DNA from: Pseudoscleropodium purum
Taxonomy: Eukaryota > Streptophyta > Bryopsida > Hypnales > Brachytheciaceae
Length of the DNA: 64,000 nucleotides
Assembly: GCA_963969395.1 (NCBI GenBank)
Contig: OZ017799.1
Coordinates: 12,960,501-13,024,500 of the forward strand
Direction: 5' to 3'
Every line of letters starts with the position of its first letter. Position 1 is the stretch's first letter. Shown piece by piece: positions 6,491 to 47,938 of this stretch. The translations under genes and the position numbers were made by a program. Under the pieces are notes generated by a model, which made no database searches, was not told the DNA's origin, and saw only the letters and a program-made list of their open reading frames with translations.

Positions 6491-6760
6491 CAAGATTGTT
6501 TTTTTAATTTTTTATGAGGTGCCAAATTGGCAATATAAAATTGTACAGTGGTGCTCCAAATTTCAACATTCATTCACATATTGAATAGAAAACATCACAT
6601 TAGTATATATCACATGTCTATAATTCTATTTGGTGATTTCATATAAGATTTTTTGTAATTTAAAGTATTCTAGCAAAAAAGTTCATGTTTTGTTGCCATT
6701 TTTTAGCCAAATTAATTTTTTTGGTGCAATCTAGCATTGGAAAGCCAAAAAAAAGCCCTA
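6491..6760 (+). mobile_element. Family A hAT-type MITE, copy 2
   Basis: A 270 bp element with a perfect 8 bp target-site duplication GTCCCCTT at 6483-6490 and 6761-6768. The right end AAAAAAAAGCCCTA matches the family terminus; the left end (CAAGATTGTTTT) is degraded. The interior aligns with the copies at 3485 and 13774. It has no coding capacity. Confidence 0.82.
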
Positions 6761-25699: not shown

Positions 25700-27440
25700 A
25701 AAAAATGTCTTTATCATTTTGGGGTTAAAATGAATCATTATATAGTGAGCTTGTTGTACACTGTCCCATTTGCATACCAAGGTATGTGTGCAAACTTCAA
25801 AATTGTCCTATGGAATTCGAATTCTTTTTTCCTTTCCACATGGATTCTATAATAATTGCTAAATTTTTTAAAGAAATTACATTTTTTTAATAGTAGTACC
25901 AATGTATTGAAAATCAAAGTTCATAATTTTTGCCCCCATTTTTTTTGTTGGGCACTCATGATCAGATAAGGTAAACTATCTAATTCTAGACCAAATAGGA
26001 GCAAGACCATTGTAGTCTAAATTATGTTAATGGTATACATTTCAAAACTTGAATGTACACCATCATTTAACAAGATTTTGTCCACAATGGGCTTGCTCCC
26101 AAATGATTTGGAATGGGGTAGTTTACTTTATACCATAAAGCAATGGGAATTCTTCAATATACTATTGTGTATGGACACTGATGTAGGCTTTGGGGTCACT
26201 TGGTGGATAACTAATTTATGAGGGCACAAAATTTTATGAAGTATTTTTACAAACAATGAGTTTTCAAAACTAGTGCCAACATAGTATGGAGTATCATTTC
26301 AACTTGCACTAATGCACTAGATTGAAATAGTGTGCTTTTGGTAAATAATTGCCACAATCACTAATAGAATAAATTAATTTAGTGTTTTAGAACACAAATT
26401 TAATCATTCATTATAAGTGTCTATATCAAAGAAGACATTAGACATTAAAAAAGAAATTTTGTAAATAGAAGGATATAGAGGGTATGAAGGGTATAGAGGG
26501 TATGTTTTGTAAGACTACATCAATTTTTCCTATCCTATGAAAATGGGCACCAAATATATACCAATGGTGAATATGACACTATTTAGAGCCCAACTACCAT
26601 TTTAGTTTAAGAAATTCATAACTAATTCTTCAAAGCACTAGTAACTTGGTGCTCCAAGACACCCTTTCCACTAGTAAAGATCCAACAAATATGAAACGAA
26701 TTCCCTGCTGCCATTCAATCCTATTTAGTCTTCTTACAATGCCTCTTACCGGGTAGCAGTGAACACACCTTTCCAACCCGTGCTCGTTTTGCTTGGGGTA
26801 TTTTTTTACATCGTCCTTTACTAGATACTAGTGAACATGCTTAGAAAGTTTTCAACAAAGGATCCCTTGAAATCGGGCCCAAAAGCTCCAAAGTTGTGGG
26901 AGCTCCAACAAGTTCGAGGGATTTGGGAGGTGTTTTCGTGAGAACTGAGAAATGCTACCGTCTAGTTGGGGCAACACCCCCTACAATTGTGGGCTTTGCA
27001 TCATGGTGTGTCTCCATCTGGACCAGTAAATTTTTTATGAAATACCTATGGTCGAGTGACACCCTATCGCAGGGTTGGTGGAGTTATCTTTGTAGCTCCT
27101 TGAAGGAAATTCTTACCCTCCTTACTTGTGACTAGGAAATCATCAATATGGATGATTTGGCAATGGGATTTTTGTATATAATTTGTTTAGGATTTTACGG
27201 TTGGCGATGGTGCAGGTTCTGGGTTCATAGTTTAGGTGAGTGAATTTATTTCAGGTTTGAATATTTGGCTGTAGCAACACAAATGAATTGGATTTTTGAC
27301 ATTCTAAAAAAAAATTGCTTAGGGAGTTAAACCCTGGCCATGAAGGCCTTGCCCAAATGCAATGAGCAATCCCACCCACCTCCAATGCAATTAGTAAAGT
27401 CATGGAGGAACTTAGAACTCCAAACTTGCCGGTTTAATGG
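25700..27440. other. Intergenic DNA upstream of the hAT relic's 3' end
   Basis: Mostly AT-rich with a GC-richer patch at 26870-27140. A short GGGTAT-type simple repeat occurs near 26470-26505. No supported gene. Confidence 0.45.
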
Positions 27441-27444
27441 AAAC

Positions 27445-29645
27445 AAAGCTTACATTTCGATTCCACGTCGTAGTCTCTCCTCCCACCATGAAGCAATTGC
27501 TTGGCTTACCGGAAAGGTTTGCAAAGTGAAAAAGTCCTATGAGAACAACTTCATGCAAGTATCAGCATGCCCTCCAAGGCGATTTCGGAATTTGGATTTC
27601 ATGAAACTCAAGGTAGAAAATGTATGCTCATCCTCCATGCTGCCCAAGACTGTACAAACCGTGATTTCTGCCACCTTGATGAATTCCAAAAATCGGCTAA
27701 GCATTAAGGCATTTTGCCCAATGCGGACCTACAACTTAATAAGAGGATTCTCATCCCTCGGTTTTGCCATGGCTACTTGTGTATGCAACTTCATGGTCAA
27801 TTTGAACAACATCTACAAGGCCAAGAATCTCTTGTCCAAAATTGGATCGACTTGCTTACAATTTGATTTCCCCTCTGTCCCAAAATCCACCGTCCTTACA
27901 ACTCCGAAGTGTGCCCGCAACGTCTTCACATGCAAAGTAAACAAGTCCTCACAGTTAGGTCGGAGCCAATATTGAAGAAATACTATTCCAAGGGCATTCA
28001 TCAATTTGACCTCTAAGAAATGTACATCAAGCTCCAGGGAGATCATCTTTGCAGCATCTTTGCACTAAGACGTCATTGAGGCAATGATTGCGGCCATGTC
28101 GTCCTTCGTCACCAAAAGTTTGTTGTCCGTCATTGCACAAATAGAGTGGTAGGATAAGTGTCCCCTACAATACAGAAGGCCAAAGATTCCACACCCGTAT
28201 TCAAATCAGTGACCCACTCCTGATTGATGGAGTAGGACTGATCACTAATAATGTCATGAAACATTTCAAAATGTCGTTTTTGCTACGCCGTATCCTTGTT
28301 AGAATACATCTATAGAGCTTACTTTCACAGATCTTCACTGTCTCAATGTAGTCACTCACAAACATATGGTTAGATTGTGCAAATTTCATGAGTGCATACT
28401 CGGATTCTAGTAACAGCATCAGATAGGAGAGAGCTAGCAAGGTACTGACATCGCAGAGGAGTTCGTAGTTGTGCTGGGCAGTGTCTCTTCCTACAGCTTG
28501 CTTTGCAATTAGGTCAAACTCCTTGATAGCTGCATCTTCACGCATCTTCACCACAAGGCTCTTGTATTCTCTCATTACCCTTTTCAAGGATTCAAGCAAC
28601 GACAACCACCACGTTTTGACATTACGGAGTATGCACCGTCCTTCGATTTCTACTAAGTTGACAAGTTTTTGGAAGTCTAAGTGATGCTTAGGACTGTTGC
28701 TCAAAATATGCGTACATGGCTTGGCATAGTGCCTCAATTTTTGCTACTCTGGGCAAATTAGACAAGGGCTCTATGGCTAAATTTGTATAGTGCGCCATAT
28801 AGTGCATTTCCAATATGAGTGGGGCCATCTGCTCTCTCATTTGAGTAGAGACCCTAGTTCGACAGTCCTAAAAGACGGACACCCCAACTACCCTGAAGCA
28901 AATTAATTGACCTACAACTTAAACTAAAGTCAAATCCGAGTGATGGTAAAGCATATTCTGAATTGTCTCCCTAACTGTTGTAGACCTATTGCCCAATGTA
29001 AAACGTCTCAATGACAACAAAATCGGGATCCTTTTGAAATCGATGCACACATATATGTGAATAGACAACCATGACTATGTATCAATGGTACTGACTTCAT
29101 TGACACTCAAGGAAAAATAATTGGCTTTTGATATAACCTTCATAATATGCTCAACCAAGGCAATTGCGAGATGATTTGCCATCTCTTACCTCAACATCAT
29201 GCTCTAGTGTTTCTTTGAAAAGTCAGGAACCATCAGCACTTCGAAAATCTCCCTCATGGACTCGTATTGTGTCAACGACCATCCCTGCATAAGCAACCAC
29301 AAGATGCCACAAAACTGCACAATCTTCCGCTTCTGCTCCTTGATGGCCCTAGGTGCCACTTGTGCCACAGTTTTCCTAATCTTCCCCAATCGTGCAAAGT
29401 AAATTTTCTCATTCCTCACATGCATATTGTTGTTAAAGAAGTAAGATTTGCCTACCTTTACCTTCCCAAAGGAAGTGGTAGCCTTCTGTTGCCTGCAATG
29501 CTTCCATAGGGAATCAAGTTCAGAAACCAACAATTTCTCCCGCCCCTCAACATTAGTGCAAACTTTACAATGTACTTGCTTTAGCTTACCATCTATACCA
29601 ACAATGCTCTCAGCTCAAGGCAAATGTGCAACCTTTGAGTCATAC
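27445..29645 (-). pseudogene. hAT-superfamily transposase relic 1
   Basis: Read on the minus strand, the frames line up in order with a plant hAT transposase. The N-terminal HCKVC and DSLWKHCRQQKATTS lie at 29500-29570. A middle region with the RNVKTWWLSLLESLKRVM segment is at 28201-28737. LMNALGIVFLQYWL is near 28000. The C-terminal dimerisation domain VLGSMEDEHTFSTLSFMKS is near 27600-27660, continuing to DFFTLQTFP near 27530. The copy carries many in-frame stops, so it is dead. The hAT C-terminal dimerisation domain (Pfam Dimer_Tnp_hAT) is well recognised here. The element's termini were not found. Confidence 0.88.
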
Positions 29646-30693: not shown

Positions 30694-31026
30694 TAAGATT
30701 GATAGGACGGTCGGACGTCCGGGACGTCTGAACGCGGACGCTCTGTCCGCAGCATCCGCTGACATTCGCGGACGCCATCCGCCCCGCCTGCCCGTCCACC
30801 CCATTCGTCCGCCCTCGTCCGCCCTCGTCCGCCCATTCGCCCCGCCCCGTCCTGTCCTGTTCGCCCTGCCCCGCCCTATCTGCCCCGCCCCCGTTCGCCT
30901 CGTTTGCCCCCATCCACCCGCGTCCATCCGCCTTCCGACGGCGGGAGGGACACTGCGTCCGCTGGCGTCCGAACGTCCGGGTTACAAACGCTTTTTTCAG
31001 GCGGACGTAGAGATTCGTCAACCCTG
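30694..31026 (-). mobile_element. Family B short element, copy 1 (degraded left terminus)
   Basis: A 333 bp GC-rich island in AT-rich DNA, full of GTCCGCC/GGCGGAC words. The right end GTCAACCCTG (31017-31026) is intact. The left end TAAGATTGAT (30694-30703) differs from CAGGGTTGAC at four positions, all C-to-T or G-to-A. Flanks TCTATATT and TTGTTGTG do not match, so no target-site duplication survives. It is in opposite orientation to the copy at 35214. Open frames inside it are composition artefacts. Confidence 0.75.
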
Positions 31027-35213: not shown

Positions 35214-35481
35214 CAGGGTTGACGAATCTCTACGTCCGCTCGAAAAAAGCGTCCGTAACCCGGACATCCGAACGCCAGCGGACGCAGCGTCCCTCCCGCC
35301 GTCGGAAGGCGGACGGGCGGACGGGGGCGGACAGGGCAGACGGGGGCAGATGAACGGGGCAGACGGGCGGGCGGGGCGGATGGGGCGGATGGCGTTCGCG
35401 AATGTCAGTGGACGCTGCGGACAGTCGGACATAACGTCCGCGTCCGGACGTCCTGGACGTCTGATCGTCCTGTCAACCCTG
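35214..35481 (+). mobile_element. Family B short element, copy 2 (intact hAT-type ends)
   Basis: A 268 bp GC-rich element bounded by perfect 10 bp inverted repeats CAGGGTTGAC / GTCAACCCTG. A perfect 8 bp target-site duplication ATCTCTTC lies at 35206-35213 and 35482-35489. Its left ~110 bases match the complemented right end of the 11.56 kb element (GACGAATCTCTACGTCC against GACGACTCTCAACGTCC, then GTCCCTCCCGCC.TCGGAAGG). Its complemented right end matches that element's left end (CCGGACGCGGACG, CTGACATTCGC). It is therefore an internal-deletion relative, not an independent family. Antisense ORFs inside are not genes. Confidence 0.92.
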
Positions 35482-36362: not shown

Positions 36363-36370
36363 CAAAAAAG

Positions 36371-36535
36371 CAGGGTTGACACGACCTCCGGACGCGGACG
36401 CTGTGTCCGCAGCGTTCGCTGACATTCGCAGTCCTGGCGGACGCAGCGTCCGCCGGGACCGCCCCGTTCGCCCCGCTCGTCTGCCCCGTCCGCCCAGACG
36501 GCCCTATTTCCCCCGACCGCCCTACCCAAACTACC
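36371..36535 (+). repeat. Left terminal region of the large element
   Basis: CAGGGTTGAC followed by GC-rich sequence dense in GTCCGC words. The block CCGGACGCGGACGCTGTGTC and CTGACATTCGC recurs in the complemented right ends of the short family B elements, which anchors this as a true transposon end. Confidence 0.88.
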
Positions 36536-36949
36536 CTGTGGTCACTCCCTTAATCTTTAAACAATTAAATGTTAAATGAAGTGCAATGGTTCGCGATTTG
36601 TTATTAAAACAATGTCTCTCATAAGTTGAAAGATTATAAAGTTTGACCACGAGTCCATGATAGTCTTGAAAGTATGAAAAAATTCCAATTCATTTTCAAA
36701 AGGCAAACTAAAAAAATTTGTGACTTCAAATATATATATATATACTATTTAAAAAATCAAGATCAACACAAATACAAACATAATCAATATGGGCAAAATG
36801 TATTCAATTTAATGTAGAATACCATACATTGTGCACATTTGGCTAATTGCACATATAATTTTTTTCATTCCAACTCTATATTTCTAAACTAATTTTTAAT
36901 GCCTATATAACCTATTCAAGTATTCAACTACTACTTCTGCACTACCAAT

Positions 36950-38443
36950 CTAATATAAATGGCGGAAATGTTCATCTGGCATCGGCCAACGATATGTATT
37001 AGAAAATCGCGTAATCACATGGGCCAAGCTAGTATTTTCATCATCAGTCTTCGAAAAAATGCGCTTCAAGTAAGCATAAAACACTTTTGCAAAGTCATGA
37101 AAGGCAAATTGTGTCGCACTTGGTGTTTTAAGTAGCACGTTGAAATACGCCTCTGACATGTTGTTTCCATTCATCCGCTGAGCAATTTTTCGAACGGCAT
37201 ACTCTTCCGACTTACATGAATACATCGGAATGACTTCCACATCTGCACCTGCTTTAAACAAATATGCAATACGTGGATCCACCCACCATCTCCTCTGCAA
37301 AGTTTGTTTCATCTCATCTGCTGATGTGAATGTGTACAAAGACTTTATTGGCTGAGAAGCTAAGGTGGTCATGCCCCAATTGCAAACTCCAATATACACA
37401 CGTGACTCATCCTCTGGAAAATGCAACAAGATGTTGTCCGGAGAAAGATCATTGTGCAAATGTCCAGCAAGATGCACTGCATACATTATATGCATAAACG
37501 CCCTTGTCAACTCCGTGCACTTCTTCCGATATCGCCCTAAACGGTGAGCTTTTACAACCTCCTCTTCGGTTGGATTTGTATACATCAAACGGATTTGAAT
37601 GTTGTCTGGATAGTCCTTATCCATATTCAACATTTGTCGAAGAGTTCCACCATTCCACCAATACGTATAACCTTCACACGTCGTTCCGTGCACTGCAACA
37701 AATCGTATCACACCCGCATGTGGATTTCGAACAGCCATTGATTCGTTTTGATGTTCTAACTTTGCAAGATCGGGTCGAGTTTGGTGGTGAATGGATTTCT
37801 TTGCCGCAAACTCCCAATAAGGAAGTATTCCTGGACATTCTTCAATACGAACCTTTCGAATCGTTGCATATCCACCTCTCATCGTTCTATCATCAACAGC
37901 AATCACGCGTGCTGTATCTGGAAGTGCTATGAGATGCCGTCTGGTCCTTTCCGCTTCAGCAACTCCATCATTGCTTTTCCACCAACCAATTGAACCAACT
38001 CGATTGTGCGTTTTGGCGAATGGAGCACATCGCCCCCTAAACAAGTCCGCTTTTAGAATCACTTCTTTAAACTGGGCGTCATTGAGTCGATATTCCTTGC
38101 CATATTTAACCAAAATGACTTTGGAATTCCACAAAGCGTCATGAACCTTGTTCTCCAAACATTTGGTGAAGTACGTTTTATGCATTTCGTCATGCCACTT
38201 TGCCACATTCAATGCATCCAACAACATCTGTGTCATGTCTACCTTGAATTTAGACACGCACTCCTCTTGATATCTGATGTACTTATTGTCTAAAGACAAT
38301 GTTGTTTCCGATTCATAAAATTGAACGATGCGCTCGATCATGAATTTCTTGCATTCTTCCGAAGGACTTTGGCGAGCTACTTCCAAGTTCGATGGTCCCT
38401 CTCCATGTTTAAGCTTCGCAACCTTCTTCTTCCCCTTCGGCAT
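36950..38443 (-). CDS. Protein-kinase-like protein carried by the transposon (497 residues)
   Basis: A single uninterrupted frame from ATG at 38443. Residues 1-20 are Lys-rich and 1-180 match no known domain. From about 180 a kinase fold is visible: glycine loop RGGYATIRKV (189-198), ATP-lysine candidate in AAKKS (213-217), and a catalytic loop HNDLSPDNILLHF (330-342) with D332 and N337 in place. The segment normally DFG reads VCNWG (353-357), so the Mg-binding Asp is replaced by Asn355. Substrate phosphorylation is therefore doubtful and pseudokinase status is likely. The frame is intact, unlike both neighbours in the element. GC-rich arrays lie upstream at 38636-38852. Function in transposition is unknown; it may be captured cargo. 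Confidence 0.8.
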   Translation of the reverse strand: MPKGKKKVAKLKHGEGPSNLEVARQSPSEECKKFMIERIVQFYESETTLSLDNKYIRYQEECVSKFKVDMTQMLLDALNVAKWHDEMHKTYFTKCLENKVHDALWNSKVILVKYGKEYRLNDAQFKEVILKADLFRGRCAPFAKTHNRVGSIGWWKSNDGVAEAERTRRHLIALPDTARVIAVDDRTMRGGYATIRKVRIEECPGILPYWEFAAKKSIHHQTRPDLAKLEHQNESMAVRNPHAGVIRFVAVHGTTCEGYTYWWNGGTLRQMLNMDKDYPDNIQIRLMYTNPTEEEVVKAHRLGRYRKKCTELTRAFMHIMYAVHLAGHLHNDLSPDNILLHFPEDESRVYIGVCNWGMTTLASQPIKSLYTFTSADEMKQTLQRRWWVDPRIAYLFKAGADVEVIPMYSCKSEEYAVRKIAQRMNGNNMSEAYFNVLLKTPSATQFAFHDFAKVFYAYLKRIFSKTDDENTSLAHVITRFSNTYRWPMPDEHFRHLY

Positions 38444-38635
38444 CGTGACAAATGAAATTGATATAGATCAAATTTTTTAATTTGAAATTAAATTCACGCG
38501 CAAGTGTCCAAAAAATTGGCAACAAGGGGGCCCCAATAAACCACTCTTGCCTTGCCTCGGAAAGGAGCCAATGGAGGATGAACCACCAAGCTCTCCGCTC
38601 CACCTTGCATTCACAAGGGGCAAAGCAAAAGTGAC

Positions 38636-38852
38636 AATGCGGACGGCCCGTCCGCCCATCTTATTGGGACGCGAACGGCCCCAAACCGTCCGCCCGATCG
38701 GACGGGCCCGGGGTGGCGGACGCATCGGCCGTCCGCCTCCCCGAAACCCTCGAGCCCCGTCCGCCCGATCGGACAGCCACGGGCGGACAAATTTGCCGTC
38801 CGCCCAATCGGACGGGCACGGGCGGACAAATCAAGCGTCCGCCTGATCCGAT
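38636..38852 (-). repeat. GGCGGAC/GTCCGCC array upstream of the kinase-like gene
   Basis: A GC-rich island about 195 bases 5' of the kinase ATG, with many GTCCGCC and CGGACGG words and recurring GCCCGATCGGAC. It resembles the subterminal regions of the element. It could hold promoter elements or transposase-binding sites, or be a nested end fragment. Confidence 0.6.
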
Positions 38853-38859
38853 TTATTTT

Positions 38860-39440
38860 TCATATTTGAAAATAGAATCTCAAGAAGAACCACTAATTGT
38901 CTAATTTGGGCATTTCTTCATACGAATAAGAAATCATTTTAGTTTTTAGCAATCGTTGAATGAAAAATAAAAAAATTTCAAATATTCAAATAATTTAATC
39001 TTTCATAAATTAATTAGAAATACATTCATATCATTTACGAGTTTCTAAATGTAATAAACACACAACAATAATTTCAAAATACACATCATACTAGTACATA
39101 TTTAACCTCGAATGCTAAATTCAAAAATAGACATAATATGGCTCTTACAAAATTACATTTCTTCTTCATATTTTTATTATTTATCAAAGTCATTTATAGC
39201 CGTATACATCAACGCTATTATAAAATAATACAATGATGTCTTCAACAATATGCTTGCCTACATACATACTTGGTGTACACTATTACACAACACTTTTTGA
39301 AAAAGTGAACAAAATTGTTGTTCAAAATTGTTCTATTCATTTAAAATTTTGTACTACTTCTACCAATCTAGTGTTCTATACTTGTTGTGAGAGTAAAAAT
39401 GAGAAAATCGAGCAAACACATGCTCACTATATACTTGCAT
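38860..39440. other. AT-rich spacer within the large element
   Basis: About 580 bases between the kinase upstream array and the 3' end of the Gly/Ser/Tyr-rich gene. No gene or repeat was recognised. Confidence 0.5.
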
Positions 39441-39446
39441 GTTTTT

Positions 39447-40709
39447 TTATTCGGAATCTAAATCGGATTCAAATTGTTGACTGTTGCCTCTTCTTTGTAC
39501 TCCAATGAATGAACCACCTCCGTAGTTTCCGTGATATCCACTCGGTGCACCTCCTTGTCCATAATTTGAACCTCCAAAAGTAGGAGGAGGAACTGGAGTA
39601 GTAGGCTTTGATCTTCTTTCATTTGAAGCCCCATAATAAGAGGCCCCATGATGCTCGTATGAATCACTTCTAGTTGATCCCGGATAGTATTGGGCGCTTC
39701 CGTGAAGAGAGCAACTATACTGCGGGGTTACATGGCTTCCTCCACTACCTTCGGAGCCCACTTGAGTGGGCGTCGTATAATATGAACCAGATTTAGTAGA
39801 CCTACCATAGTGCGTGTTGCCATAGCTACCTGTCCCACCTAGAGAGCCAATTTCAGAGGGAGTGCCATAACGAGAACCAACTGCACTTGAACCACCATAA
39901 TGCGTGAATCCATAGCTCCCTCTTTCACCTTCATATCTATTTTGAGGATCGTAACCAGAGTATGAACCACCTCTTCCATATTCAGATTCTTGCGTTCCAT
40001 GTTCATGTCCGTAGGACCCACCATGCCTATCTTGCCGTCCATGATCTTGAAGGCTTCTGCGTGTTGCCTCTTGCATTTGTTGTTCGAATTCAATTCGTTC
40101 TCGTTCTTCTACCCGCTCGTGTCTAACTCCAAATGTGACAGGCGCTTGCATATCATCGTCATCATCGTCATCTGTCCATGCATCTTCAGCATCTCGTAGA
40201 ACAACTGAAGGTTGTTGTAGATAACCTCGATTAGACCACTCTGACATGCAATCGCTTGCGCCCCTCCACTGTGTATCTATAACAGCATCCGTGCGCGTAT
40301 AGTTCTCTACATTGCGACCTGTAGCAGTACGCCAGTCCACGTCCTTGTGGAGTACAATCTCTGCCCAAACCATTGCCATAACATTATAATTCACTATATT
40401 TGATTTGGCGCTTTTAATGCTAAGAACTCGATGCACTTGTGTGTATCGTTGTTTGAAGTGCTCACTTTGGCACGTAGACATTTATCCTTCCCAACGTGGT
40501 GCTTGGTGCTCTACACGTTCACGTGGCCAAAGTTTTTGAATGTGAGTCATTTTCACATACTTCTTGCACATTGAGCAATCCCACACTCTTGTTGGCTCTT
40601 CTTCCCATCCCGGTTCACCCACACACAATGGATCGGCCCAAGCATCTCAATCGAACAATTGGGGTTTTCCCTTTCGACTACTTTTTTTGGGTGTTCTATC
40701 TTTCGGCAT
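39447..40709 (-). pseudogene. Transposon cargo gene A: conserved N-terminal domain plus Gly/Ser/Tyr-rich tail, two in-frame stops
   Basis: From ATG at 40709 one frame runs 421 codons with TGA at 40649-40647 (codon 21), TAA at 40484-40482 (codon 76) and no frameshift. The N terminus is basic. Then come CSMCKKYVKMTHIQKLWP, a CxxC-containing segment, and NYNVMAMVWAEIVLHKDVDW. Both recur in the divergent gene at 44039, so the two are paralogues. A run of seven Asp precedes a low-complexity tail rich in Gly, Ser, Tyr and Gln (roughly codons 210-420). An ATG at 40481, just after the second stop, leaves a 344-codon open frame that could still be made. No known family was recognised. Confidence 0.7.
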
Positions 40710-40917
40710 GATGAAGCTGAAGCAAAGAGAATGAAACAATTAGAAAGCTTAAGAACCAAAATTTTGATTTAATTAATTAATTAAAATTTTACAAGCGTGA
40801 ACTTTGTGAAAATTTGTAACAATGCCACAACAATCGTTCACTCAAAGCGGAAGGGGCGCGTAGAGCTTCCAATGCATTGGTCTGCCCACTCCAAAAGAGA
40901 ACGATTGTTCGGAATGA

Positions 40918-41200
40918 GCCGTCCGTCTCCCCATATATATATGCGGACGCCCCGAGGCGGACATCCAGATCATGCGGACCACATCAATCCGCGTGTCAAT
41001 CGGACGGCCGTAACCGGGCGGACGGGTATCGCGGCGGACGGGGCGGACGAGGCGGTCGGGGCAGACGCAGGATCGGGCAAACTGGGCGGACGGGGCGGAC
41101 GGGTATCGGGGCGGACGGGGCGGTCGGGCCAGATAGGACGGACTCCGGATCGGGCGAACAGGGCGGACGGATATCGCGGCGGACAGGGTAGACGGCTCAT
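40918..41200 (-). repeat. GGCGGAC array upstream of cargo gene A
   Basis: A GC-rich island 210 bases upstream of gene A's ATG, with repeats of GGGCGGACGGGGCGGACG and GACGGGTATCG. It lies between the two divergent cargo genes, facing a similar array at 43599-43830. Confidence 0.65.
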
Positions 41201-41214
41201 CTTAAACCCTAGAC

Positions 41215-41470
41215 CTAATGAAGGAAATTGTTCTTTTTTCAAAATCTCACGGTATAGATGTTTAACCCGTAAAGTTCTTTTCACTAAAAACACTTCAAAA
41301 CTACCAATAGTAGTGCAAATATCAAGTCTTAGAAGAAAAATACTTTGGGGCATATGTAACCGTAGGATCTTGTAGTAAATTAGTTGGAAAAAATGTGGAA
41401 AAAATTTTAGACAAATCCACCATTTGGATTGTAAGATATTAGATATTGAATGTTTCATTTAAGGGGGCTA
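41215..41470 (-). repeat. Nested fragment of dispersed repeat family R
   Basis: On the minus strand it reads ATCTTACAATCCAAATGGTGG, then CTACAAGATCCTACGGTTAC, then GTGAAAAG...TTTACGGGTTAA. This is the same order as the 3' part of the R copies at 19.0-19.2 and 62.4-62.6 kb. It sits inside the transposon between the divergent genes. Confidence 0.65.
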
Positions 41471-43598
41471 CTCAATTATGTCTATTAATGAACAATTGGT
41501 AGGCTAACAAACCTAACTTAGCATGTATTTTAATATTTGTTACAATTGTTTTAGGAATATTATAACATAATACTATTATAATATTCTTATAAATGATATA
41601 GTACTAAATCATTTCAAAATCAACAACATTCGAACACAATCTGTCAATCTTGTCTTTCATACTCCTTTAATGATATATATATATACATACATAAAATATA
41701 TTAGATAAATCAACTTGAACAAATCAATGATTATATATTTCATAGATCTATTCTTCATCAATCAACTAAGAGTGCATGTGCAAATATAGACAAAGATGGT
41801 TTCACCATTTGTTGCCAAAAAATAGATAAACAAATAGAGAAAGATATGAAGTGAATGTTACTTAGAGAATTGAAAAGAAAGAAATTGAAGTACTCAATTG
41901 CATTTTATTAAATTGGAAAATTGCATGTGGATGACATGAATTAATCTTCATAGATGCTAAACCTATACGAGTTGCATTTCAACATTTATGATTTATGCAA
42001 TTGATTGAATTAAAAGCTCTTGTAATTACATTTTCAAATTTTCGATTCAATCATTCAAATTTGCAAGAGTGATTTATGATAGATTTATAACTTTAAATGT
42101 GAAAGCATTCAATGCCTTTATGCGTTTGTTCATCAATATATTAATTTTAGATAAATAATATATATTTTTTATAACATATGCATAAACCATTACATTAAAA
42201 AAAACAAAAAACTAAGAACCAAACCATATAGGCTGGTCAAATGAAGAGAACAAGATAATAAGAGCCCTATGAGACAAAAAACAAAGGAAAAAAAAGAAAA
42301 TATCAAAAGGATTCAAAGGAAGAAACAAGATGCATTCTTGCAAGACCGTAGAATACATAATGATTTCAAAATCCAAACACAAATATATTTTCTATTTCAA
42401 TGAGAGCCAAAAATGAACTATCTTGCTCTCAAAGATTGTACAATGTACACGTTATACAAAATGAATATATAACAGAAAGAGTAGAAGACATCATTTATCA
42501 TGATTGAAAACTGAAATGATTTTTTTTTTCTATGTAGAATATTTTATGAAATGTAACAATGTATTTAATTATCATAGTAATTGGTAGAAATCTTTGTGCA
42601 ATACATAGAAACATTTCATTCATGTGGAGTTTTTTCATTTATTTAGGATTAAAATTGAAATATTATACTCTACAAAGTACAAACCAAAAACAATACCATA
42701 TACCCAAGTTCAAAAGTTTGCAATTGTTTCGTGAATTCATTTTGAAAACTCAAACAAAGAAATATTTTATAATCAATATCTTGTTCATTTGAATCATTTC
42801 AAAAATCGAATTCCGAATTCAATTCCTATTTATAATAGAAATTATATTTGTCAATTTTTTAAATCTTTAAACAATGAACCCTCTTTTTTAAAATTAATAT
42901 TTAAAAACATCTGAAATAAGAATATTGGAATTATCCTTCAAAATAAATATAACACATGTATAATGTATTCTACTCCACCAACTCAAATAACGAATTTTTC
43001 TATGTTTTTAAGAAAAATATAACCATACATGATTTGAAAGTTAAAACATTGATTCTTTTTCTTTGTTTTCAAATCTAATCAAAATTTCATTAAAAAATAT
43101 GAAAGACTCGATGTTCATTTGAAGATCGTGATGCACTTTTAATGAGATATCACAACCTTTTATTAAATATCATGAGGTTGAAATCCATTTAACTGTTATT
43201 CTAATTATGTATTGGGGCCTTTTTTTTAAATTTCATTTGCTTACAATGAAAATGGAATTGATTATTTTTGCAAAACATTTGATTTCCTAATGAACTTTAA
43301 AAAAATCCCCACCATCTTTAGATCTTCTCAAAACCTATTTAGAGATATAATATCAGTAAATAATTCAAACATATTCAACTTAACCACATTCCCCTCATTC
43401 GTAAAACAATTTAGGGGAGAAAAGAAAAGGTTTAGGGTAATTAGGGTATAAGGTTTAGGGTTTACATTTTTTTTTTTTTTAAATGACAAACTAATTACAT
43501 TGATCCTCATTTAGCAGTGATTATTAGGCTGTTTTATTTTTGAAATGTTACCGCTCTTTTTGAATAATAATGGCCTTATAGGATGCACCAATTGACAA
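41471..43598. other. AT-rich, non-coding segment inside the large element
   Basis: About 2.1 kb of AT-rich DNA indistinguishable from the surrounding genome and unlike the rest of the element. No transposase-like frame is present on either strand. A TTTAGGG-like cluster lies at 43430-43462. Probably DNA inserted into the intergenic region after the element formed. Confidence 0.5.
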
Positions 43599-43830
43599 TT
43601 GGGTGGATGCCGTCGGCGGTCAGTGTTTAAGTGGGGCGGTCGGCGTGTCCAAAGCGCGGACGGCATCGGAAGGCGGATAGTGCGGACAGTCTGGGCGGAC
43701 GCGCCGGCCGGATGGGCGATCAGACGGATCGGTTGGTCAAGGCGGTCGGACGGGGCGACGAGCGGACGTGAGATTCAGGGCGCTTCGCGCGGTCCGAGGC
43801 AGGTCCGGCGGCGAACGGCTATAAGGGTGG
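43599..43830 (+). repeat. GGCGGAC array upstream of the RING/coiled-coil gene
   Basis: A GC-rich island ending about 210 bases before the ATG at 44039, with CGGACGG, GGCGGTCGG and GCGGACG words. Its distance to the gene equals that of the array of gene A, as expected for two halves of one divergent promoter. Confidence 0.6.
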
Positions 43831-44038
43831 AGTGACTTTTCATTTCTTCTCACTTCAATTCTCCTTCGGTGCCAAGTTGGATGTGCTACTATTGCTTTAT
43901 GCGCTAGTTGCTCCTACGGGGTGGAGAGTTGGGGTTCTCTATCTTGTGTTACTGTATTGCGGTTGATGCCATCACTTTTGACTATCACGTGAGATTTTTT
44001 TATTCACTTCAATTGGTTATTGAATCCAGTTGACAATC

Positions 44039-47000
44039 ATGAACGACGAAGGTGATCGAAATATTAATGGGATGACTCCAAGAAGCGAAGTGAAGAAAAA
44101 AAGCAAAGTGAAGGGGGCTACGCACGACCTTCGGCTTGACATTTTAAATGACCCTACAATTAAAGCAGAGAGAGGGTGGGAAGATGAAGATGCGGAGTAT
44201 TGGACATAAAAAATGTGCAGGACCTATGTTAAAATGTACCACATTGACAAATTGTGGCCTCAGGAGTCGCACATGAGTCATACACGGGATTTTTGTTATA
44301 AACCATGGACTTGCAACAACAAACATTTTGTCCATTGATCTGAGGAGGTGTGGCGTGTTCTATTCGGAAACAAGCGCAGAAGTAAAGGCTATATTAATTA
44401 TAGCGTGGCGTGTATGGTTTATGCGGAACTTATATTAGAGCGCAAGATCGATTGGAGCACGTTTCCGACGACAACAGTTTGCCCACTTCTACTTGAAGCC
44501 AATCAAAAGGACATTCCCGACTTGTACAATTCAGAGGGAGAAACAGAAAAAGTATTAAAAAATACTATTGAGGTGAAAATGGATGGTGTGGAGAAAGCCT
44601 CAAATGTTGAAGAATTACGGTCTGTACAATCTTCAACAAAAGCAATCAATGAAAGCTCTTCAAAAAATGTGGGGAAAGATGTGGAGAAAGATATAGAGGC
44701 GCAAGAGGGTGAAGTCTTTTCCACAGTTCCAACGCGTTTGACCTTTACACCAAATGTTGCGGTACAAACGCAAACGGAGTTTGTAAACAAAGGTAAGGTT
44801 TGCACGGAACGCGGGGAAACTTTAAAAAGTAAAGTAGACGAAGTATTGGCGGAGAAAGTGGCAAAGGCTAATGCTACAATTGATAGTCTGATAGCCAACA
44901 ATTGTTTTGATAGTTTGGTCTACAAATCTCCGCCTGTGCATCAAAGCGTTGAATCTAGTCCAGCGTTAAGTTTAGAAGACAAAGTACATACGCCTCGTGG
45001 ACAAGGCGTGACGATTGATAATATATCCTCATTATGGAGTTCCCAGCGTAAAAGGCGGGCAGAGGAGTTTCCGTTTACAGCGGCATTGCCAAGTCCTCTA
45101 CATCGAACCTTGCAAGACATGTCCAATCCAAAACAATTGGAAAATCTTTTGAAGCTCTCGGTTCAGTTTGCTAACCTTCATGAAGAAATAGGCGGATCGT
45201 TGAACCCCGATGATGGTGCTACTACTGTTCCAATGAGTCCACTTGCAGATCCAAAGGATGTTGCACATATACTTGATACAGCTTTCAAGATAACGATGTC
45301 AACTGAATTTTTAGCGCAAGCTGCTCTGACTTTTATGAATTTGGCCAAGGAGTTTTCTTTCATGGCACCAGAGATGTTGAAAGGTGCTATAGCATTTCAG
45401 AATCTCACGAAGACTTTCGGACTACTTTTCGAAGAAAGAGATGTTTACATACTACAATTGGTGGAATATGAGAAGAAAATTGCTGACCTTGAAGGAGTGG
45501 AAGCAAGGTGCAAAGTGTTGGAGTTCAAATTAAAGACTTCGAAGAGTGAGGTTGAACATTTAAATCAACAATCATCGAGGCAAATGGAGGAGTTGATGAA
45601 GATGCGTAAACGGATTGCAGAATTGCAAGGGACCTCCAAAAATCCAAGTGAGGTTGCAATCTCACCAGTGATTGTACTCGGAGATAGTCAAAAGACTCAA
45701 GAGAGTGAAGATAAGCTCTCTCTTCCTTTTGATAAGGCCGAAGCAAGCGACAATCCTGCCATTGTGAATGTACAAGAAAGTCACGACATGAGCATGTTAA
45801 AAGCGACACAACAACCATCAATGAAAAAGCTTTCATCCGTTTACGTGAATGTGGAGACGCAAACGGAGAGTTGTGACTTTGAAGAGTTGAAACATAAATT
45901 GGAGGAGGCAATTGAAGCAAAAAGAATCGTTGAATCCAAGTTGAATCGATTGCAATTGTCTTTGGATTTGAAGAAGTTTATGCCATCTAGCGGCTTGGAG
46001 TCTCGATGGTTAGCATGGGTACAAAGACTCCAAGACAGACCCTCTATAGTATCTCGAGCAATGGCAGGTCTTCAAACATTGGCAATGGAGTCGAATGAAA
46101 ATTGCGATGCCATTCAAAGCTCTTTGAATTGGTTCAAGACTATGTTTGAACAACATCTTTCAAAGGGATATACGGAGATCACATGTTGGGGAGACATGGA
46201 TGCCATGCTTGAGCGGTTAAACCACACAAAGAAGGACTAAGCTCCACCCATCAATTGGGCCTTGGAAGTAGAGGAAGGATGGGTCCCTTACAACACACTT
46301 TCAACACACATCAATGTGAAAGACAAGCGAGTGGTGCATGCTTGTGATCCAACCTCTCCAATCTTGGATGGTTGTTGTAGCCTTTGCCAAAGCCTCTTCG
46401 GACCGGAAGGTGCGGTAACCATGGGCCAATGTCGCCACACTTTCCATGTCACTTGCATTGTGAAAGCATCACTCATTCGTTCGGTGTGTTCCGAGTGTCG
46501 TAGTCCATTGAATGTTAGGTTCTACGAAATGTTTGGTATCTTGGAAGTTGTGCCTCCAGGCCACGAGTACAATCGTTGGAATCTTCCTCTTGATCAAGCG
46601 CCGTACAAATTTCAAAATTATCAACATTGGGGGAAGCCAATCTAGTGGAATGCAAATGAACAGAGGCATGATTTGTACAAGGAATCTCAGCAACCATTGG
46701 ATTTGGATGTGTAGATGACTCACAATAGAGAGGTGGAATTGCGGGCTCGAGGAATCGTAGATGACGCGGCCCGTGAAATGTTTTGTCGCAACATGGGGGG
46801 ACATTGGAGCTTGCAACACGAAAAGTTCTTTCGTTTTCTAGATAAAAAAGTGGAGAGAGGACCAGAAGACAGTTGGGTGGAGGTGAACCATGGAAAAGAG
46901 TTCGATAAGCAGTATAAGGCATACGACCACACCCTCGTAGGTAGGGCCCTTCTATTGTCGAAGTTGGAAGAGGCTGCAAAAGTTCGTGCTGTCTACGATA

Positions 47001-47437
47001 CAAATGGACTAACAAGCACAGGACATTCATCTGTAGATGTAGCAGCAGCATTTGATAGGCGCATTGGCGATATTATAGGGCATTGGAAGGCTTTCCTATT
47101 GGATGGAGACTGCCTCACAGTATGGCAAGGGAAAGGAGATGATGAAGTTGTTCAAGCGATGGTAGATCGTGTGGAGAGCAACTTGAGAACCTTGAAGGCA
47201 GACGAAGTCGATTTATCACCGAAAAGAAAACAAAAAAGGAAGCGTAAAGAGGACGATGACTTCTCTCCGGAAACCAAGAAACAATTTCATAAGGTGGACA
47301 TCGAAGTTCAATCTGGAGGGCGAATAGTCCATCCAAGTCAACAACGATCAACTCATCAATCATCTGCTAAACTCCTCGGTACAACAGATTTTCCTTTTGT
47401 TTTGGGAGAAGGTAGTGGTCCATCCGGTGGAAAGTAG
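44039..47437 (+). pseudogene. Transposon cargo gene B: coiled-coil, RING-H2 and basic tail in one frame with five internal stops
   Basis: From ATG at 44039 a single frame runs 1,133 codons without a frameshift, interrupted by TAA 44207, TGA 44336, TAA 46238, TAG 46643 and TAG 46712. The N terminus shares KMCRTYVKMYHIDKLWP and NYSVACMVYAELILERKIDW with gene A. The TGA at 44336 aligns with a CGA Arg codon in gene A. Then follow a low-complexity acidic region, coiled coil (about 45440-45620 and 45870-45965), RING-H2 (CSLC...CRHTFHVTC...CSEC, 46370-46506) and a basic KRKQKRKRK tail (47221-47250), likely nuclear. RING-H2 proteins are usually ubiquitin ligases. The parts could instead be separate short proteins: after the last internal stop, a 240-codon frame opens with ATG at 46715. 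Confidence 0.72.
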
Positions 47438-47734
47438 GATTTGAGGAGAATTTTGTTTTTTAAAAACAATGGTCCTTTCATTGTTTAAAAACAAAAAAGA
47501 ATGTGAAAGATTTAGATCTTAAAAAGATCGTATAGGATTCAATAGTGATATTGGAACTATGTTTTCATGTATTTTGTTTATACATATATATTTATATATA
47601 AAGATGTTATATTTTCATTTGCGTATAAAAATATTTTTATATGTACATCTTATTTTACGTGGATGCATTCATTTGTGATTGTATAACATTCAAATTACAT
47701 AACAATATAAAATTTTCTAATGACTAATGGCAAT

Positions 47735-47930
47735 GCGAAGTCCGCCCCATCCGCCCTGTCCGTCCGCCCTGTCTGCTCTATACGCCCGTCCGCCCAGCCC
47801 GTCCGCCTCCCGTCCACCCCGCCCTGCGCGTCCGCCTTCCGATGGCGGGAGGGACACTGCATCCACGTGCGTCCGGACGTCCGGAAAACGGACGCTATTT
47901 TGGGGCGGACGTTGAGAGTCGTCAACCCTA
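47735..47930 (-). repeat. Right terminal region of the large element
   Basis: A GC-rich end dense in GTCCGCC. Complemented it reads TAGGGTTGACGACTCTC..., then GTCCCTCCCGCCATCGG, closely matching the left end of the element at 35214 and the right end of that at 30694. The last base pair differs from the left end (A for G), the only mismatch in the 10 bp repeat. Confidence 0.88.
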
Positions 47931-47938
47931 CAAAAAAG

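Follow-up and report, generated by a model that had tools for sequence, protein, structure and literature searches.

A probable non-autonomous, gene-bearing hAT transposon of a moss and its transposase-encoding sister element

Transposons of the hAT type are usually described as elements with one gene. Maize Ac and Ds, which are hAT elements, have short terminal repeats, like the moss element discussed here. They also share with it an 8-bp target duplication, clustered subterminal hexamers that in maize are bound by the transposase, and the presence of transposase-less relatives with the same ends (PMC3260210, in the portion available). Another kind of system is known from VANDAL21. Its protein VANC21 binds dense, same-orientation short motifs in non-coding DNA of the element, and this leads to loss of methylation (PMC5735166, again from part of the text). 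The subject of this paper is a stretch of 64,000 nucleotides from the moss Pseudoscleropodium purum (GenBank assembly GCA_963969395.1, contig OZ017799.1), which we call the window. It corresponds to C43:12960501-13024500 in the 313 Mb of genome that was searched. Positions 36371-47930 of the window are taken up by an 11,560-bp element with three genes, here called G1, G2 and G3. We consider this to be a non-autonomous yet gene-bearing hAT transposon, at a probability of roughly 85%. A sister element in the same genome has the same ends, kinase gene and spacer, and encodes the hAT transposase that the large element is without. Instead of a single element with one gene, there is a high-copy pair that shares ends and a kinase.

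The ends of the large element are exact. The window was scanned for a 9-nt inverted repeat with an exact 8-bp duplication, at most 20 kb apart. This returned five places, two of which have the terminus of the element: the large element itself, and a 268-bp miniature relative that lies 0.9 kb to its left and aligns with both of its ends. The terminal consensus at both ends is (C/T)AGGGTTGAC. The short terminal inverted repeat starts with YAGGG, a start that is typical of hAT termini. The original prediction, made from the letters of the window alone, had proposed an exact-ended element between two identical stretches of eight bases, and both the scan and the further copies confirm this. It had also described the ends as an inverted repeat. 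That is right for positions 2-10, which pair, but not for the first base, which differs (C/T).

The copies of the element show that it has moved as one unit: its ends are constant, and 8 bp of the target are duplicated. Probes of 1 kb were taken from both ends, and the best 40 of 2603 candidates (left) and the best 40 of 2520 (right) were scored. The candidate totals are loose, given that the ends also occur in miniature relatives, and the numbers scored are minimum values. Apart from the window itself, the main scored matches are 93-97% identical at the left end and 94-96% at the right. Because such copies exist, a chance origin of the paired ends is excluded.

In total 21 copies were inspected, counting that of the window. 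For ten of the other 20, all or nearly all of the sequence was fetched; in eight of these the left and right probes matched 11-15 kb apart, and two were top left matches. The ten further copies are the next left ends by rank, for which the ends alone were fetched. The right end lies inside the fetched stretch in 16 of the 21, and was not resolved in L025, L027, L033, L043 and L047. Both ends and the 3' part of G3 are present in 15 copies. Their 8-bp duplications, for which up to four pairings of end candidates were compared and the best was taken, are perfect in 12 and have one mismatch in three, and all 15 differ in sequence from one another. Eight of these 15 copies were chosen because both probes matched close together. 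A duplication is also present in every one of the six that come from the ten left ends ranked next. The original prediction had suggested looking for other full-length copies that agree with this one in ends, 8-bp duplications and gene content, and such copies do exist.

Empty sites, also suggested as a check, were found as paralogues of the target of another copy. If the flanks of that copy (L013/L014) are joined with one duplication, they align without a break to two places in the window (Table 1). A third match, at 6499-6754, has a small deletion beside the junction. These sites are copies of a repeat that L013/L014 jumped into, which means that the demonstration rests on paralogues and not on alleles. 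The same comparison for L021/L022 gave a ragged junction at 61.9 kb of the window. As an aside, a dispersed AT-rich repeat is present at 18.5, 19.4, 61.0 and 61.7-62.1 kb, and it also flanks three of the eight other element copies that were compared.

The element does not come with its own engine. Pfam scans of its proteins and of their close relatives found no hAT transposase (DUF659, Dimer_Tnp_hAT) between the ends of the window element. The best match of two hAT transposases in a tblastn search of the window had an E of 5.7 and lay outside the element. The first reading of the sequence had likewise seen no transposase. Because none was found in it, the element is not classed as autonomous.

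A genome search for the hAT dimerisation domain produced at least 150 scored matches among 664 candidates, several of them in long open frames. None of 20 short (3.2 kb) loci with this domain has the terminus of the element. Three loci with long hAT frames were fetched, L069, L070 and L071. It is L070 that has the left end of the window element, followed by the kinase, the AT-rich spacer and the right end. G2 is missing from it, and a hAT frame of 1155 codons occupies the place of G3. The 1155-aa protein matches DUF659 (1.9e-28) and Dimer_Tnp_hAT (5.6e-9). A frame of equal length is found at L074, which is a clean sister element of 9,641 bp with a perfect duplication, AATAAAAG.

The terminus was not seen in the 8.0 and 8.5 kb fetched for L069 and L071, whose own ends may lie beyond these stretches. 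They make up a hAT family of their own. Over 693 columns, the frame of L069 (1172 codons) and the sister transposase are 35% identical; the L069 frame also has a long acidic C-terminal part. The fetched stretch of L069 contains no CAGGGTTGAC terminus. Two copies of the large element hold inserts, of 1.8 and 3.4 kb, for which open frames were listed with no Pfam scan. These were considered as hiding places for a transposase, and are taken for nested repeats instead because one frame resembles, by eye, a frame beside L071.

The sister element also exists in multiple copies. A transposase probe, for which the best 40 of 588 candidates were scored, gave matches other than itself that are 96-97% identical. 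Six more transposase loci were inspected by their fetched ends. The right end is shared by all six, and kinase-gene sequence is found at the expected distance in five; the sixth, L081, has only the stretch upstream of the kinase. For six of the eight sister copies both ends are in hand, and four of those six have perfect duplications. Compared with the large element, the sister ends are 84-88% identical on the left and 82-86% on the right, with the same motif clusters. When 11 large copies are compared with two sister copies, the kinase shows 6 fixed differences and the spacer 29, so the two types are separate lineages. The right flank of sister copy T1 (L070/L073, about C42:24556535-24557300) matches the G2 of the large type at 95%, which places one family member beside or inside another.

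The hAT assignment had been guessed from the ends. It is now firm, because a sister in the same genome with the same ends encodes a hAT transposase. The sister also explains why the large element has no transposase. Going by the example of Ac and Ds, the sister transposase would recognise the shared ends, that is, the terminal repeat and the clusters of the motif CGGACG. It would then act in trans on the 11.6-kb element and mobilise it in the way that Ac mobilises Ds. The shared ends argue strongly for such trans-mobilisation. The element is also not the stand-alone new class of transposon that had been suggested, but the transposase-less sister of a transposase-bearing element with which it shares kinase and spacer.

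One could turn this around and suppose that the large element is autonomous, that G3 is an unrecognised transposase, and that the hAT sister is a relative with which modules were exchanged. G3 is indeed conserved, is about 1120 aa long, and sits in the same position as the transposase gene of the sister. Its relatives, however, match only RING and weak coiled-coil-type Pfam families, there is no transposase among the best 60 of 69 PDB matches, and profile comparison with two hAT transposases gives a probability below 1%. Nor is the idea needed, because a real hAT transposase in the same genome has the shared ends. We regard it as very improbable.

Table 1 Features of the element and its relatives in the window (positions are those of the window).
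Feature	Positions	Strand	Remarks
Second paralogous empty site of L013/L014	3491..3743	+	
Paralogous empty site of L013/L014	13779..14025	+	single CTATTTTC, junction unbroken
Miniature relative, CAGGGTTGAC...GTCAACCCTG	35214..35481	+	268 bp, duplication ATCTCTTC
Target duplication, left copy CAAAAAAG	36363..36370		8 bp
Left terminal inverted repeat CAGGGTTGAC	36371..36380	+	same terminus in other copies
Left subterminal CGGACG/CGTCCG block	36371..36530		5 motifs
G1, protein kinase	36950..38443	-	497 aa, open in window copy
CGGACG/CGTCCG block upstream of G1	38634..38850		10 motifs
G2	39447..40711	-	shared N-terminal domain of about 120 aa, long Gly/Ser/Tyr/Pro-rich tail; broken
CGGACG block upstream of G2	40915..41200		10 motifs, 9 in the same orientation
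AT-rich non-coding spacer	41250..43550		about 94-95% shared with the transposase-bearing sister
CGGACG block upstream of G3	43600..43800		4 motifs, one orientation
G3	44041..47437	+	shared N-terminal domain, coiled-coil-like part, RING-H2, C-terminal part; broken
RING-H2 finger of G3	46364..46507	+	zf-RING_11 and zf-ANAPC11 over cut-off
Right subterminal CGGACG/CGTCCG block	47735..47930		9 motifs
Right terminal inverted repeat GTCAACCCTA	47921..47930	-	
Target duplication, right copy CAAAAAAG	47931..47938		

G1 is a kinase. The Pkinase match of the window copy has an E of 0.007 and falls under the Pfam cut-off. Four relatives match at 2.3e-5 to 6.6e-12, of which only P0055 passes. Over 15 G1 sequences, K215, D332 and N337 are invariant and D355 nearly so, and the family has the kinase residue sets AxK, HxDxxxxN (as an HND....N loop) and D(F/W)G. 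An AlphaFold2 (AF2) model of G1 has a predicted local distance difference test score (pLDDT) of 77.6 and a predicted template modelling score (pTM) of 0.55. Each of the 50 Foldseek matches listed for this model is to a kinase or kinase complex; the best E is 1.8e-6, but TM-scores are low (0.24-0.35 by query). The frame is free of stops in six of 11 copies.

G2 and G3 have an N-terminal domain in common (38% over 111 aa; hhalign 99.65%). G2 has one open stretch of 430 codons in another copy (L019:3509-4798:-), and in two copies other than that of the window, G3 has uninterrupted stretches of 1042 and 1075 codons. The coiled-coil-like part of G3 gives weak SlyX-type and GCN4-fusion matches. RING ligases are its top PDB profile matches, and its eight RING ligands are invariant in seven rows. 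A derivation of G2 and G3 from the sister transposase was also considered, and profile comparison gives no support for it. The cargo is thus much as the original prediction had it, a kinase and two paralogues of which one has a RING-H2; this is the larger of the two. The prediction overlooked the breaks in G2 and G3 and an Asn in the kinase, to which we return below.

Protein databases hold relatives of all three genes: 55 for G1 (24-73% identity), 38 for G2 (40-86%) and at least six for G3 (32-96%). The plant-named relatives are two, from the moss Ceratodon purpureus, where one kinase cluster represents 126 member sequences. One relative is labelled as a 'Bacilli' metagenome-assembled genome (MAG), and is taken for contamination. 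Most of the relatives listed are on contigs of a few kb. No relative of G1 or G3 was confirmed on the viral contigs searched, nor any of G1 on the prokaryotic contigs searched. Because all three genes have relatives of graded identity elsewhere, a one-off recent capture, the 'striking capture event' of the first reading, is unlikely.

Most of the differences among the copies in this genome are C>T/G>A changes. These affect 6.1% of CG, 6.5% of CHG and 2.2% of CHH sites, against 0.7% for any change at A/T sites. Private changes amount to 0.8-1.8% per copy (11 copies). The in-frame ratio of non-synonymous to synonymous changes (dN/dS) is 0.51 for G1, 0.56 for G2 (3' 344 codons) and 0.60 for G3. 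Judging by this mutation pattern and by dN/dS, the copies appear to stem from a fairly recent burst, after which they decayed in the way of methylated DNA that is not under selection.

Evolution free of coding constraint, and decay by C>T with most changes at CG and CHG sites, would suit an accident in the style of Pack-hAT elements: host genes for kinase and RING proteins, trapped inside hAT ends in a single event, would have hitch-hiked since, with no function. A hAT that captured and amplified the host histone H3 gene is known in fungi (PMC6710886, partial text). An accident of this kind leaves it unexplained that the kinase occurs in both the transposase-bearing and the transposase-less type. 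The three genes also have graded relatives (24-96% identity) with conserved catalytic and zinc residues, and where open they are of whole length. We think it an unlikely explanation. It is moderately well supported that the proteins of G1, G2 and G3 were retained over evolution because they are useful to the element: even widely diverged relatives still have the domains and catalytic residues.

How they might help is suggested by the motif CGGACG. The element has 38 instances of CGGACG/CGTCCG, compared to a mean of 2.2 and a maximum of 7 in 200 first-order simulations. Not one of the 38 lies within the three coding stretches, and all lie within five blocks, which were delimited after the motif positions were seen. 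In the clean sister element, clusters occur upstream of the kinase as well as at either end. A weaker cluster lies upstream of the sister transposase, with three six-base motifs in the clean copy and seven in T1, and one motif of the clean sister lies within the transposase frame.

It is conceivable, as a weakly supported prediction, that G1, G2 and G3 are a regulatory kit for the family that works on these clusters, whether at the two ends or in front of the genes. G2 and G3 might bind the clusters, or be recruited to them, through their shared domain. The RING of G3 might remove a silencing or repressor protein, and the kinase might switch the activity. A wider picture can be sketched, which is less likely than not. 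It has an old moss lineage of multi-gene hAT transposons, in which the kinase, the low-complexity protein G2 and the RING protein G3 would form an element-coded control system. Acting via the clusters at ends and promoters, this system would keep the family active against host silencing, with control genes and transposase divided between two partners.

A more specific proposal, somewhat more doubtful still, is a kit like that of VANC, in which G2 and G3 bind the clusters and strip methylation from the family. The clusters at ends and promoters are dense and non-coding, and two of the five are mostly in one orientation; in this they resemble the targets of VANC21 (as given in the part of PMC5735166 that was available). 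The excess of C>T at CG and CHG sites is also what would be expected of methylated DNA. The likeness to VANC is one of motif clusters only. A simpler reading would be that the clusters are plain transposase-binding sites, like the AAACGG hexamers of Ac (PMC3260210, same portion).

Several observations weigh against the element as we read it, or against parts of the reading. Copy L035/L036, with its right end in hand, has no matching duplication and no 3' part of G3. Among the six sister copies with both ends, T1 and L085 have no duplication, and neither T1 nor T2 has an intact kinase frame. G2 and G3 are interrupted by stops and frame changes in the window copy. G1 of that copy has N355 in place of the metal-binding Asp, and its DWG reads NWG. 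The fold model of G3 was unusable (pLDDT 36), and neither DNA-binding nor ligase activity is known for G2 or G3. No coding constraint was detected among the copies in this genome, given that dN/dS is inside the range of out-of-frame controls (0.40-0.73), and the decay pattern gives no support for a function of individual copies. The linkage of G1, G2 and G3 is seen in this genome only. Our preferred reading nevertheless remains that of a gene-bearing hAT transposon that depends on its sister.

The surroundings of the element in the window appear gene-poor. There are six stop-to-stop frames of at least 190 aa, and the sole one outside 36371-47930 is at 27331-27975. A lone right terminus, GTCAACCCTG, is found at 31017-31026, and is perhaps the end of another family member.

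In the literature searched, most of it outside subscription journals, there is no description of a moss or hAT element with such genes. As whole words, hAT, moss and kinase are all absent from the main text of a 2026 review of plant gene capture, as far as available (PMC13317346). The novelty lies in how the multi-gene set of a hAT family is divided: one partner element has the transposase, and the other has two extra genes with relatives elsewhere. Whether signalling proteins and proteins of the ubiquitin-ligase type, encoded by an element, take part in transposon control can be put to the test here. The family may also account for a set of unannotated 'protein kinase' genes in moss gene sets.

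Transposase-less partners as such are familiar from Ac/Ds. In the moss, however, the partner without transposase is larger than the one that has it, and carries three whole genes. The motif clusters are also found upstream of genes, and the kinase is common to both types. ToxhAT, for its part, is a low-copy element. It is a hAT-named transposon of 14 kb with a cargo gene, from wheat-infecting fungi (PMC12506042, from part of the text), so the size of the moss element is not in itself new. ToxhAT is fungal, and no gene content is known that it has in common with the moss element.

The histone H3 hAT of Pseudocercospora fijiensis similarly has a non-transposase gene amplified to hundreds of copies (PMC6710886, as above in part). 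There a host housekeeping gene was captured, whereas the moss cargo is a set of three genes that have relatives in other samples. In En/Spm, which encodes TnpA and TnpD, an element-coded accessory protein acts on subterminal and promoter repeats, as is proposed here. This element differs by belonging to the CACTA superfamily and by its 3-bp duplication.

VANDAL21 is a Mutator-like element. Also known as Hiun, with the genes VANA, VANB and VANC, it is like the moss element in having multiple genes and dense arrays of short motifs in non-coding parts. It is of another superfamily and has its own transposase (VANA), and neither kinase nor RING is mentioned for it in the portion of the source at hand (PMC5735166). 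The binding of VANC21, with its loss of methylation, would be the nearest described logic to the proposed regulation by clusters, and the moss family could be a bryophyte counterpart to anti-silencing of the VANC type.

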